Assembly: GCA_029882215.1 (NCBI GenBank)
Contig: JAOULC010000010.1
Coordinates: forward strand, 1 to 64,000
Length of the DNA stretch: 64,000 nucleotides
Direction: 5' to 3'
Source: Gammaproteobacteria bacterium
Lineage (GTDB): Bacteria; Pseudomonadota; Gammaproteobacteria; SZUA-229
Position numbers and translations under genes: made by a program. The notes under the pieces are model-generated. The model ran no database searches. It was given only the letters and a program-made list of their open reading frames with translations, and was not told the DNA's origin. Shown here piece by piece: positions 6,108 through 55,798 of this stretch (position 1 is the first letter of the stretch; the number at the start of each line of letters is the position of its first letter).

Positions 6108-7298
6108 ATGTCTAAGGAAAAGTTCGAACGTAATAAACTACATGTAAACGTGGGCACAATTGGTCACGTTGACCATGGTAAAACCACTCTGACAGCTGCA
6201 CTGACTAAGTGTATGGCAGAAAAATTTGGTGGTGCTGTTAAAGCATTTGATCAGATTGATAACGCACCTGAAGAAAGAGCGCGTGGTATCACGATCGCCA
6301 CTTCACACGTTGAATATGAGTCAGATACACGTCACTACGCGCACGTTGACTGCCCGGGACACGCTGACTATGTAAAGAACATGATCACTGGTGCTGCTCA
6401 AATGGACGGCGCGATTTTAGTATGTTCAGCGGCTGATGGCCCGATGCCACAAACTCGTGAGCACATTTTGTTGTCGCGTCAGGTTGGTGTGCCGTACATC
6501 CTGGTATTCATGAATAAAGCCGATATGGTTGATGATGCTGAGCTGATCGAGCTGGTTGAAATGGAAATCCGTGAGTTATTAGATCTTTATGATTTCCCAG
6601 GTGATGACACGCCTATCGTTGTTGGTTCTGCATTAAAAGCACTGGAAGGTGATACGTCAGAAATTGGTGTTGAAGCGATCTACAAGCTGGTAGATGCAAT
6701 GGATTCTTACATTCCTGATCCAGTGCGTGATACAGACAAAGACTTCCTGATGCCGGTAGAAGATGTGTTCTCTATTTCAGGTCGTGGAACAGTAGTCACG
6801 GGTCGTATCGAGCGCGGTATTATCAATACTGGTAACGAAATCGAAATCGTTGGTATTCGCGAAACTCAAACCACGACATGTACGGGTGTTGAGATGTTCC
6901 GCAAGCTGCTTGACGAAGGTCGTGCGGGTGATAACGTCGGTCTGTTATTACGTGGTACTAAGCGTGAAGATGTTGAGCGTGGTCAGGTATGTTGCAAGCC
7001 TGGTTCGGTTAAGCCGCACACAACATTTGAAACAGAAGTTTATATTCTGAGCAAAGATGAAGGTGGCCGTCATACGCCATTCTTTAACAACTACCGTCCA
7101 CAGTTCTACTTCCGTACAACTGATGTGACCGGTGCTTGTGATCTGCCAGAAGGTGTAGAAATGGTAATGCCAGGTGATAACGTCAAAATGACAGTTACCC
7201 TGATTGCTCCAATCGCGATGGAAGAAGGTTTACGCTTCGCAATTCGTGAAGGCGGCCGTACTGTAGGTGCGGGCGTTGTAAGTAAAATTATCGAGTAA
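6108..7298 (+). CDS. tufB: Elongation factor Tu (copy B, ATG start)
   Basis: [44 protein letters not shown]; context Thr-Tyr-Gly-Thr-tufB as in E. coli. Confidence 0.98.
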
Positions 7299-22519: not shown

Positions 22520-23710
22520 GTGTCTAAGGAAAAGTTCGAACGTAATAAACTACATGTAAACGTGGGCACAATTGGTCACGTTGACCATGGTAAAACCACT
22601 CTGACAGCTGCACTGACTAAGTGTATGGCAGAAAAATTTGGTGGTGCTGTTAAAGCATTTGATCAGATTGATAACGCACCTGAAGAAAGAGCGCGTGGTA
22701 TCACGATCGCCACTTCACACGTTGAATATGAGTCAGATACACGTCACTACGCGCACGTTGACTGCCCGGGACACGCTGACTATGTAAAGAACATGATCAC
22801 TGGTGCTGCTCAAATGGACGGCGCGATTTTAGTATGTTCAGCGGCTGATGGCCCGATGCCACAAACTCGTGAGCACATTTTGTTGTCGCGTCAGGTTGGT
22901 GTGCCGTACATCCTGGTATTCATGAATAAAGCCGATATGGTTGATGATGCTGAGCTGATCGAGCTGGTTGAAATGGAAATCCGTGAGTTATTAGATCTTT
23001 ATGATTTCCCAGGTGATGACACGCCTATCGTTGTTGGTTCTGCATTAAAAGCACTGGAAGGTGATACGTCAGAAATTGGTGTTGAAGCGATCTACAAGCT
23101 GGTAGATGCAATGGATTCTTACATTCCTGATCCAGTGCGTGATACAGACAAAGACTTCCTGATGCCGGTAGAAGATGTGTTCTCTATTTCAGGTCGTGGA
23201 ACAGTAGTCACGGGTCGTATCGAGCGCGGTATTATCAATACTGGTAACGAAATCGAAATCGTTGGTATTCGCGAAACTCAAACCACGACATGTACGGGTG
23301 TTGAGATGTTCCGCAAGCTGCTTGACGAAGGTCGTGCGGGTGATAACGTCGGTCTGTTATTACGTGGTACTAAGCGTGAAGATGTTGAGCGTGGTCAGGT
23401 ATGTTGCAAGCCTGGTTCGGTTAAGCCGCACACAACATTTGAAACAGAAGTTTATATTCTGAGCAAAGATGAAGGTGGCCGTCATACGCCATTCTTTAAC
23501 AACTACCGTCCACAGTTCTACTTCCGTACAACTGATGTGACCGGTGCTTGTGATCTGCCAGAAGGTGTAGAAATGGTAATGCCAGGTGATAACGTCAAAA
23601 TGACAGTTACCCTGATTGCTCCAATCGCGATGGAAGAAGGTTTACGCTTCGCAATTCGTGAAGGTGGCCGTACCGTTGGTGCCGGCGTTGTTAGTAAAAT
23701 TATTGAGTAA
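22520..23710 (+). CDS. tufA: Elongation factor Tu (copy A, GTG start)
   Basis: Protein identical to the 6108..7298 product; str operon context. Confidence 0.98.
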
Positions 23711-51330: not shown

Positions 51331-53358
51331 TTAATTCTCAAATATATTTTCTTTGTTTATTTTATCTGCAAGCAGTTTAAGCAGCATTTTCGCACCAGTT
51401 GAGCTTAAGTGGTGATGGTCACGATAGAATGCGTGTTCTAAATCATGAGTGACACAGCGCTCGGCTACCGCTGTGTCGCAGAAAAGTTCATGTGGATAAA
51501 CTCTGTGGATGTTTTTATGCTGAATACTGTCAAGTAAAGCAAAAGCATGTTTTGTTGTATTCCGATAGGATGCGTAAGACGTTGTGGACATGTTCTCTGC
51601 CAGAATGCTTTTTATCTGCTGATCGGGTTTTCTGAATATCAGCTGCGCCAGATGTGATGGAATGTCTTTTCCGGCGTCTGGTACAGGGTAAATTAGTATA
51701 ACTTTGTGGCCATGGTTGGCTAGTTCCAGTACAGTATTCCGGTATTCCTTGGTCACGGCAGCTCGGTGTGCTTGCAGGTTTAAAAGAGAATTGTCAGGAT
51801 ATTGCAGGTAAGTTCTCCCTGTCCCTTTAAAGCCGTCTATCTGGTTAGCTAAATTATTTTCTGGCAAGATGGCTAATATGTTTCCTCCCAGTATAACCAG
51901 TGCGTTACTGTGTGATAGTAATTGCGATCTTCTTGAACTCTGCAGTGCGGCGTTGCATTCGCCAGCTTTGTTTGTTTTGGTGTTAACACTGTTCATGTTG
52001 AGTACGTATTGACAGCCATTAGTATTGAGTACGGTAAAGTTATATTTGTTCTCACTTGAATAGTCTAATAGTGGTTTTTGCAGTGCCATCATATGCGAGT
52101 CACCGACCAGGAAAATAGTATCCGCTGAGTTATTATCAAATGTACAGGAGTCTTGGTTGCATACGTTTATTTTTGATGGCTGCATCTCCATGTCGCCAAG
52201 AATAGCTGGTAGTCGAGAAGGAATGCCTTTGTAGTGTAGTACTGTGGCATTTAGGCCAAAAATAAGTATTGCTGTTATGCCTAAGAAGACAAGCAGGCTA
52301 CGTCTGTTAAATGTTGACCGGTTTCTGAAAGGCTTTTCGATTAAGAAATAGGAGACAAGAGATAACACAAAAGCCAGTAGTATCCAGCCTGATTTTTCGT
52401 AAGCTGATGGTGTTGCATTAATGATTCTGCCAAATGCGAAAATAGGATAGTGCCACAGGTATAAAGAATAAGAAATTAGTCCTGTTGCAACAAATATTTT
52501 GCTGGAAAGCAGTTTGGTAACCGGGTTTTTTTTGTTAGCAAACCAGATGATTAAGACGGTGCCAATAATAACCGGTAATGTGACCAGCCCGGGGTGGTTG
52601 TCACTGAATTTTGTAAAAGTGACAGAGTAAATGATCAACAGCAAACCAATGAGCGGCATGACTTGTTTTAGAAGTGTGTTGTTGACTTGCTGCGGGTGTT
52701 TATACAAAGTATAAGCTAGAAAGCTGCCTGCCAGAAGTTCCCAGAAGCGACTCGATAGCATGTAAAAAGAAGAAGAGGGGTTTTGCTGGGTCATCCATTG
52801 CGAAAATAAAAGACTAATGAGCAGTGCAAATGCAAGCAGGTAAAGAGCATGGTTCTTACACCAGCGATAGATGCCAATCAGAATCAAAGGAAAAATAATA
52901 TAAAACTGCTCTTCGACAGCCAGTGACCAGGTATGCAGAAAAGGCTTAAGTAGTGCAGACTCTGCACCATATTCTTGTAATGAATGATCCCAGTAAAAAT
53001 TGGAGGCGAATAATAAAGAACTGAGCTGGGACTTAGCGAAGTCGATAAATTGTAGAGGGATCAGATATAACCAGGCAAAGGGCAAAGAGACTAGCATTAC
53101 AGTAAACAGTGCAGGCAGCAGTCTGCGAGCTCGCCGTTCATAAAAATCAGTGATGGAAAACCGCCCTGTTTGTACCAGTTCCTTAATGATTAGAGAAGTG
53201 ATTAGGAACCCGGAAATAACAAAGAAGATATCGACACCAAGAAACCCACCGGTTAACAGATGGCCTGCTTTAAATGCAAACTCCGCATGGTAAATAAGTA
53301 CGGAAATAACGGCTATCGTTCTTAATCCGTCAATTTCTGGTCTGTATTGGAGTCGCAT
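51331..53358 (-). CDS. Acyltransferase family 3 (OafA/YrhL-like) with C-terminal SGNH domain
   Basis: YRPEIDGLRTIAVISVLIYHA, FLGVDIFFVISGFLIT, FYERRARRLLPAL, LHTWSLAVEEQFYIIFPL; C-terminal FLVGDSHMM and DHHHLSSTGA. Confidence 0.92.
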   Translation of the reverse strand: MRLQYRPEIDGLRTIAVISVLIYHAEFAFKAGHLLTGGFLGVDIFFVISGFLITSLIIKELVQTGRFSITDFYERRARRLLPALFTVMLVSLPFAWLYLIPLQFIDFAKSQLSSLLFASNFYWDHSLQEYGAESALLKPFLHTWSLAVEEQFYIIFPLILIGIYRWCKNHALYLLAFALLISLLFSQWMTQQNPSSSFYMLSSRFWELLAGSFLAYTLYKHPQQVNNTLLKQVMPLIGLLLIIYSVTFTKFSDNHPGLVTLPVIIGTVLIIWFANKKNPVTKLLSSKIFVATGLISYSLYLWHYPIFAFGRIINATPSAYEKSGWILLAFVLSLVSYFLIEKPFRNRSTFNRRSLLVFLGITAILIFGLNATVLHYKGIPSRLPAILGDMEMQPSKINVCNQDSCTFDNNSADTIFLVGDSHMMALQKPLLDYSSENKYNFTVLNTNGCQYVLNMNSVNTKTNKAGECNAALQSSRRSQLLSHSNALVILGGNILAILPENNLANQIDGFKGTGRTYLQYPDNSLLNLQAHRAAVTKEYRNTVLELANHGHKVILIYPVPDAGKDIPSHLAQLIFRKPDQQIKSILAENMSTTSYASYRNTTKHAFALLDSIQHKNIHRVYPHELFCDTAVAERCVTHDLEHAFYRDHHHLSSTGAKMLLKLLADKINKENIFEN

Positions 53359-53446
53359 GGTATTGATTTAACCTAAGTGCACGCTGAGGTCAGCGCAAAA
53401 GGCGCTATTCTAGCAAATATTGGCGGATTTTTTATTCCTGATGCAA

Positions 53447-53478
53447 AAAAAAGCCGTAATCAAAGTTACGGCTTTTTT
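53447..53478 (-). terminator. Intrinsic terminator downstream of merC/GDCCVxC pair
   Basis: aaaaaagccgtaa-tcaaag-ttacggctttttt. Confidence 0.8.
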
Positions 53479-53648
53479 GTACCGGGTAATCTATCCCAGA
53501 TAAGCTTTATACTGAACTCTTATGTTACGGTTCTTTTTTAAAGCGATGTCATATTGTTATTATTGACCCTCTTAAGGGTACAGCGACGGTCTTATTGGCT
53601 GTTAGTTGTGATCTGATTAGTATCTGCATTGTTGTCATCCAGAAGTAT

Positions 53649-53873
53649 TTATGAACAGCAGGACTGTTGCAGTTGAATCGGTGGGCAGGGAACGGTGCCA
53701 TACGAGCAGTAAACACAGCAGTCGCCAGGTTTAGGTTTTAGTAAGGCATTGCAGTTTTCGCACTCATAAAACCACTGGCAGGCATCAGTGGGCATGATTT
53801 CAGTTTTGCTATGGCTGCACTCGGGGCAGGTAATGACTGAGTCGGTGGTAAATACGGGGCGGTGTTCTGACAT
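53649..53873 (-). CDS. GDCCVxC domain small Cys-rich protein
   Basis: 74 aa, 10 Cys; CPEC, CENC, PGDCCVYCSYGTVPCPPIQ. Confidence 0.8.
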   Translation of the reverse strand: MSEHRPVFTTDSVITCPECSHSKTEIMPTDACQWFYECENCNALLKPKPGDCCVYCSYGTVPCPPIQLQQSCCS

Positions 53874-54274
53874 TAGCTAGCTGCCTTCTGCGGCTGGCTG
53901 ACGCAAACAGGCAGCAGCCATTGCCAGACTGAAACAAGCATCATTAGTACTAATCCGCTATAAAGCAGGTAGGTACTCCAGTCATCGGACCAGAACAGAT
54001 AGAGTGTTGCCAAAACCATGAGCGGGCCTGATGCGCCAAAAATCAGCTGAATATAGCGGCGAAATACCCAGCCAGAATACAGCTGCAGTAATAAGCTCAG
54101 AACGGCAAATAGGGGGAGTAATGTGTTGATAAACAGGCCTTCGTAAGCAGATAGAAAGCCCAGTCCTGCTGCTGCACCCAATGAGGCCGCTGCAGGAAAG
54201 CATGAAGCGCAGCCCATTGTGCTGATGATTGCCCCCAAAGAGCCGGAATTGTCGAGTAATTTGTGAAGCTGCAT
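53873..54274 (-). CDS. merC: MerC family mercury uptake membrane protein
   Basis: GSLGAIISTMGCASCFPAAASLGAAAGLGFLSAYEGLFINTLLPLFA closely follows the MerC GALGSVVSAMGCAACFPALASFGAAIGLGFLSQYEGLFISRLLPLFA pattern. Confidence 0.88.
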   Translation of the reverse strand: MQLHKLLDNSGSLGAIISTMGCASCFPAAASLGAAAGLGFLSAYEGLFINTLLPLFAVLSLLLQLYSGWVFRRYIQLIFGASGPLMVLATLYLFWSDDWSTYLLYSGLVLMMLVSVWQWLLPVCVSQPQKAAS

Positions 54275-54306
54275 ATGATTTATTGCCTTTTGTTGTGCGT
54301 TTTCGG

Positions 54307-54337
54307 ACTATAACTCCGTACCTGACTACGGGGTCAA
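54307..54337 (-). promoter_or_regulatory. MerR-type promoter/operator for merC
   Basis: Minus strand TTGACC-CCGTAGTCAGGTACGGAGT-TATAGT: 19-bp spacer and CCGTA-N6-TACGG dyad. Confidence 0.8.
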
Positions 54338-54418
54338 TGCATAAAGATATTTGAGTTGCATTAAAAGATGGGGTCTGTGGTAAAATTTCAGGTCTGATTA
54401 AATATTTTTAAGGTAGTT

Positions 54419-55798
54419 ATGGCTCGCAAGCTGTTTATAAAGACATTCGGTTGCCAAATGAATGAATACGATTCTGCCAAGATGCGCGATGTACTGGCAG
54501 AGTCACACGGGCTTGAAGAAGTGCTTGAAGCACAAGATGCCGATATTTTATTGCTAAATACTTGCTCGATCCGTGAAAAAGCTCAGGAGAAAGTCTTTCA
54601 CCAGCTGGGTCGATGGAGAAAGCTGAAAGATAAAAATCCAGACTTAATTATTGGTGTAGGTGGTTGCGTTGCGAGTCAGGAAGGTGCTGTTATTCGGCAG
54701 AGAGCACCTTATGTGGACTTAGTGTTTGGCCCGCAAACCATTCATCGCCTGCCAATGATGCTCAGTGAGCTTGAGAAAAGTCGCTCGCCGATGATGGATA
54801 TATCCTTTCCTGAAATCGAAAAATTCGACCATTTGCCGGAGCCGACAGTTGATGGTCCGGCCGCTTTTGTTTCCATCATGGAAGGCTGTAGTAAATACTG
54901 TACTTTTTGCGTCGTGCCTTATACCCGCGGTGAAGAGGTCAGTCGGCCGTTTGATGATGTGCTGGCTGAAATCTCCAAGCTGGCAGCACTGGGTGTTCGC
55001 GAAGTGAATTTGCTAGGGCAAAATGTTAATGCATACCGCGGGGAAATGCTGACAGAAGATGGCAGTGCCGATGAGCCGGCTGATCTGGCTTTGCTGATTA
55101 CTTATGTCGCCGCCATTGATGGCATTGACCGAATCCGTTTTACCACCTCTCATCCCGTTGAATTTTCAGACCGTCTGATTGATGTTTATGCTGAGGTCCC
55201 TGAACTGGTGAGCTTTGTTCATCTGCCGGTGCAAAGTGGTTCTGACTTTACACTGTCAGCGATGAAGCGTGGTCACACAGCAATTGAATATAAATCTAAA
55301 ATCCGTCGTCTGCGTGCACAGCGGCCGGGCCTTACGGTTTCTTCTGATTTTATCATTGGTTTTCCGGGGGAGTCAGAAAAAGATTTTGAAGACACCATGA
55401 GACTGATTGATGATGTCGGTTTTGATATGTCTTACAGTTTTATTTATAGTGCCCGCCCCGGTACCCCTGCATCAGAGTATGAAGATGATGTGCCGATGGA
55501 TGTAAAAAAGCAGAGGCTGCAGCGCTTACAGGATAAAATTAACGAGCAGGCTGCAGCGATCAGTCACGCCATGATCGGTTCTGAGCAGCGTGTTCTGGTT
55601 GAGCGTAAAGCGCGAGATACAGAAGGCGAAATCACAGGCCGCACGGAAAACAACAGGGTGGTCAGGTTTGCCGGCCCAGAGCATTTAATCGGTCGCTTTG
55701 TCACGGTGAAAATTACCAGTGCAACAACTAATTCATTACGTGGTGACTTTGTTGCCGTATCCGACCACGACACTGTGCGACAGTTTGCAGCACTTTAA
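54419..55798 (+). CDS. miaB: tRNA-2-methylthio-N6-dimethylallyladenosine synthase
   Basis: [12 protein letters not shown], radical [19 protein letters not shown]. Confidence 0.97.

Follow-up and report, generated by a model that had tools for sequence, protein, structure and literature searches.

Within the 64,000-nucleotide stretch of DNA analysed here (the window), two short genes on the minus strand lie downstream of a mer-type promoter and operator, and a single mercury-type regulator gene is found on another contig of the same draft genome. The features are as follows.

54307 to 54337, minus strand: mer-type promoter/operator, with -35 hexamer TTGACC, a 19-bp spacer and -10 hexamer TATAGT.
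54316 to 54331, minus strand: perfect dyad CCGTA-GTCAGG-TACGG inside the spacer, the predicted site of a MerR dimer.
53873 to 54274, minus strand: merC, encoding a membrane Hg(II) transporter of 133 aa (NF033784, 144.3 bits against a cut-off of 140; PF03203, E 1e-13).
53649 to 53873, minus strand: gene for a GDCCVxC protein, 74 aa (NF041374, 109.2 bits against a cut-off of 40; motif GDCCVYC).
54419 to 55798, plus strand: miaB-like neighbour, named from sequence, divergent and outside the unit.
G000:C15:15506-15910, outside the window: gene for a solitary 134-aa MerR of the Hg type, flanked by secF and a DsrE-family gene.

Read on the minus strand from 54337 to 54307, the sequence is TTGACC CCGTAGTCAGGTACGGAGT TATAGT, two promoter hexamers around a 19-bp spacer, and the end of the -10 hexamer lies 32 bp from the ATG of merC. 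An earlier, sequence-only reading of this DNA had described a MerR-type operator with a 19-bp spacer and a dyad before merC, in the layout of Tn501/Tn21, and examination of the genome confirms both points. The -35, spacer length, -10 and CCGTA-N6-TACGG dyad are those of the Tn501/Tn21 operator, in which CCGTACATGAGTACGG sits within a 19-bp spacer (PMC11049809), and the dyad agrees at 12 of 14 positions with the proteobacterial MerR site TCCGTAC-N4-GTACGGA, also within a 19-bp spacer (PMC1526738). Exact copies of CCGTA-N6-TACGG occur once in the window and at two places genome-wide, and the combined pattern of promoter and dyad, which fixes 18 positions, is matched exactly at a single site in the 3.43-Mb genome. 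The next-best genome matches carry three mismatches and are no commoner than those of a reversed-pattern control, and the number expected by chance in the window with up to three mismatches is 0.03. Other promoters of this kind, for which the earlier reading had proposed a scan, were sought genome-wide with the combined pattern, which returned background only and no second operator. Among 58 non-redundant merC loci, 30 have the strict operator pattern before merC, and it was seen in none of 200 shuffled sets. No standard sigma-70 promoter was found in the merC region, and an Rfam scan of positions 53300 to 54500 gave no match. Elsewhere in the window, identical minus-strand 31-mers at 6137-6167 and 22549-22579, the complement of which encodes a 10-residue stretch as in EF-Tu, belong to two copies of tuf separated by about 16 kb.

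MerC is an importer of Hg(II), and apart from the product of the merC gene described here no protein of the genome exceeds the NF033784 cut-off; weak matches on contigs C141 and C14 were judged not to be MerC. The N-terminal region of the protein has a CASC cysteine pair, seen within GCASCF. The stop codon of merC and the start codon of the GDCCVxC gene overlap as TAATG, and because of this overlap the two genes are probably carried on one transcript. What had been taken for a stand-alone merC unit is stand-alone in that its regulator is unlinked, but merC is accompanied by a second gene. The GDCCVxC protein has 11 cysteines, nine of which (C16, C19, C32, C38, C41, C52, C53, C56 and C63) are invariant across 24 homologues. 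Comparison of its AlphaFold model (mean pLDDT 79) with the PDB gave no significant match, the top weak ones being zinc-ribbon parts, and at the sequence level the protein weakly matches a zinc ribbon of RNA polymerase.

Genome searches for MerR-domain, MerA and HMA (MerP-type) proteins returned no match within the window, in agreement with the earlier statement that merR, merA and merP are not visible there. A MerR-domain search of the whole genome, which that reading had called for, identified exactly one Hg-type MerR, encoded on contig C15 and unlinked to the merC window on contig C6. Its best NCBIfam model is the Hg MerR model TIGR02051 at 129.4 bits, below the curated cut-off of 150.85 and at least 22 bits above any other non-MerR model; the CueR model scores 94.9 bits. 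Among solved structures the best match is Tn501 MerR (5crl, E 5.9e-27), with a score well above those of CueR, ZntR and CadR, followed by a Gram-positive MerR and only then by CueR and CadR. The Hg-binding cysteines 82, 117 and 126 (Tn501 numbering) are all present, as in each of the four species that make up the genus sample, and a CC pair not found in Tn501 MerR precedes the loop. In a phylogenetic tree the solitary MerR groups with mer-linked MerRs, apart from the family's remaining MerR-type regulators, although support for the dividing branch is modest (94/95). No mer operator is found at the solitary merR gene itself in any of the four species. The genome encodes four other MerR-domain proteins; as read from sequence, one is a fusion with a B12-type domain, another is a short orphan adjoining an ihfA-like gene, and the remaining two resemble response regulators. 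The DsrE-family gene adjoining merR in all four species (PF02635; L027 14887-15402; L097-L099) has an apparent signal peptide, and a second DsrE-family gene follows the GDCCVxC gene in the nearest species, G037 (L030 2143-2574); a link between sulfur handling and mercury is possible.

A mercuric reductase was likewise sought genome-wide, another check that had been proposed, and no MerA exceeds the cut-off, the best match scoring 314.5 against 454.45. Five long MerA-like matches were read as relatives of glutathione reductase or lipoamide dehydrogenase and have no C-terminal Cys pair. MerP is also absent from the genome, with the three HMA matches corresponding to a CopZ-like protein, a CopA-like protein and one more P-type ATPase. 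Of the features of a mer resistance operon, merA, merP and an adjoining or internal merR are lacking here. The earlier option that merC is a remote member of a mer regulon needs correcting, given that the genome holds no larger mer operon elsewhere, no MerA, no MerP and no second operator. MerA is absent from all four species of the genus. Nine of the 11 other merC genomes in the family have MerA, and the two exceptions are hard to judge, as merC is truncated in one (G009) and the contig ends just after merC in the other (G028).

Because the regulator scores under the curated Hg-MerR cut-off, its metal specificity could differ, and the MerR and operator might respond to a soft metal other than mercury (Zn, Cd, Pb, Au or Ag) that MerC and the GDCCVxC protein would then serve. 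The CC pair, which is found in some other metal sensors, and the lack of a mercuric reductase in the genus fit such a reading. Nevertheless, mercury MerRs are the closest models and structures by a wide margin, the operator resembles mer sites and not the published ZntR consensus, and sister MerRs sharing the three cysteines sit in merC-merA loci, making a different metal unlikely. 

Comparison across merC loci reveals a division between MerA and the GDCCVxC protein. Of the 58 non-redundant merC loci, 36 have merA without GDCCVxC, 15 have GDCCVxC without merA, seven have neither and none has both. With 16 genomes of unstated completeness searched whole, in four of which only part of the first-look candidates was scored, MerA over the curated cut-off was found in none of the 14 merC-GDCCVxC genomes. 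Long MerA-like matches of about 730-750 aa in such genomes lack the C-terminal Cys pair. The GDCCVxC family is not tied to merC, because some of its genes stand alone and others have MerR- and MerT/MerP-like neighbours (L160, L161). In L160 and L161 the GDCCVxC gene adjoins a different MerR-type regulator and a MerT-like membrane gene, with a MerP-like gene also present in L161. At L035, L037, L057 and L063, merC is accompanied by a putative Fe-S metallochaperone (matched to the L037 protein, NF047645) and merA is absent from that place; in L057 this putative metallochaperone occurs together with GDCCVxC beside merC. A degraded GDCCVxC gene with in-frame TGA and TAA codons (L165, G034:C19:23889-24017) shares its contig with a merR-merC-merA locus some 7 kb away.

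The draft state of the assembly, with 98% completeness and 4.6% contamination, counts against the proposed control in trans, but a binning error is an unlikely cause of the separation of merR from merC because both loci sit in conserved neighbourhoods. Each of the four species of the genus encodes MerR between secF and the DsrE-family gene and has merC on another contig, preceded by a mer operator whose spacer is 19 bp long. The position of merC is common to the present genome (G000) and G037, where miaB adjoins it and GDCCVxC comes next, whereas in G035 and G036 merC is at a different place and is followed by the Cys-rich metallochaperone NF047645. The MerRs of the genus form one clade (support 100/99), whereas the merC genes form two that are joined in zero bootstrap trees; a single clade for the four merC genes is not formally rejected by the AU test (p 0.06). 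From these trees, two origins of merC in the genus are favoured, and it is likely that a resident MerR has had two different merC units under it. Across 54 genomes of the family, an Hg-type MerR (scoring at least 98 bits) is present in 15 of 15 genomes with merC and in one of 39 without (Fisher p 2e-12, with kinship ignored). Control of merC in trans by the unlinked MerR is thus well supported as a sequence-based prediction, and the earlier suggestion to this effect gains from both the unlinked Hg-type MerR and the same split in four of four species.

Another explanation offered at the outset is that the operator and merC are a functionless remnant of a decayed mer operon, as might be suspected in a genome with a single operator and neither MerA nor MerP, when related genera have merA-bearing mer operons. 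Yet the merC, GDCCVxC and merR reading frames are intact, the operator is kept at 17-18 of 18 positions between the two closest species even though their MerC proteins are just 69% identical, MerR with all its Hg cysteines occupies the same place in four species, and both merC versions of the genus are under mer operators. Because a decaying system would not be expected to hold intact frames, operator and MerR cysteines together while other sequence diverges, we regard a relic as very unlikely. Slightly less probable still is control by some other regulator, or weak constitutive expression, since the four additional MerR-domain proteins that could be invoked are of different types, no standard sigma-70 promoter lies nearby and a 19-bp spacer makes a poor promoter without MerR (PMC11049809).

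We consider it probable, therefore, that the locus is a working MerR-controlled promoter through which a regulator encoded at an unlinked locus switches merC and the GDCCVxC gene, with MerC importing Hg(II) and, more tentatively, the Cys-rich protein taking the place of reduction. The operator, the gene pair, the unlinked MerR with its Hg cysteines, their conservation and the absence of MerA are the observations underlying this proposal. The solitary MerR would be made without autoregulation, because its gene carries no mer operator. A MerR dimer on the CCGTA-N6-TACGG dyad would hold RNA polymerase off the over-long promoter, and binding of Hg(II) to the three MerR cysteines would untwist the spacer and turn on merC together with the overlapping GDCCVxC gene; we infer these steps, with Hg(II) as the inducer, from the known mechanism of MerR and from conservation. 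Hg(II) would then enter the cell through MerC. A point against the proposal is that, where MerA is missing, uptake of Hg(II) ought to be damaging if the second gene does not deal with the metal. In this genome the Cys-rich GDCCVxC protein might take up the metal in place of reduction, and in the sister species an Fe-S/Cys metallochaperone might do so in its stead. A role for the GDCCVxC protein as a mercury sink, carrier or chaperone is the least supported step, and we put it forward tentatively.

The usual view of mercury resistance is one of import and subsequent reduction by MerA. The presence of a conserved importer under MerR control where MerA is missing, combined with the mutual exclusion of merA and GDCCVxC beside merC, suggests that some bacteria handle mercury without formation of volatile Hg(0). 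It is conceivable, though we would not yet favour it, that MerC-GDCCVxC is a recurring, reductase-free mercury module replacing MerA in several proteobacterial lineages, in which MerR-controlled uptake is coupled to a small, Cys-rich, zinc-ribbon-like protein that binds or passes on Hg(II), and that in this genus one resident MerR has served two different merC units in trans. The regulatory part of the main proposal is likely, whereas we infer the chemistry that would follow uptake. If true, estimates of mercury cycling based on merA counts would be affected, the GDCCVxC family would have its first testable role, and the genus would be a clear natural example of unlinked targets under a single MerR.

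Control in trans by an unlinked MerR and MerB without MerA are already known, and a MerR-merC unit without MerA was not found in the literature searched, nor was any report on GDCCVxC; most subscription journals lay outside that search. The locus shares with the Tn501/Tn21 mer operon its promoter and dyad, a three-Cys MerR and a merC-type transporter, but differs in that merR is unlinked and has no operator, merA and merP are absent and a GDCCVxC gene follows merC. The accessible portion of the comparative study of MerR regulons by Permina et al. 2006 (PMC1526738) has the same proteobacterial MerR site and spacer, and describes no solitary MerR with merC-only, MerA-less targets. Regulation in trans by an unlinked MerR has been predicted in Pseudomonas pseudoalcaligenes CECT 5344 (PMC10433974) and shown experimentally in Synechocystis, where the MerR Slr0701 regulates an unlinked merA (PMC6741143). 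As in Synechocystis, a solitary MerR here would act on a target elsewhere in the chromosome, with the response to Hg being predicted in our case. However, the Synechocystis target is merA and the element is also present at its own merR gene, whereas here the predicted target is merC-GDCCVxC, merA is absent and merR has no such element. Finally, genomes noted to have MerB without MerA (PMC8261052) similarly keep a mer function without mercuric reductase and pose the same question of the fate of Hg(II), with MerB being the part retained there, and MerR and MerC the parts retained here.
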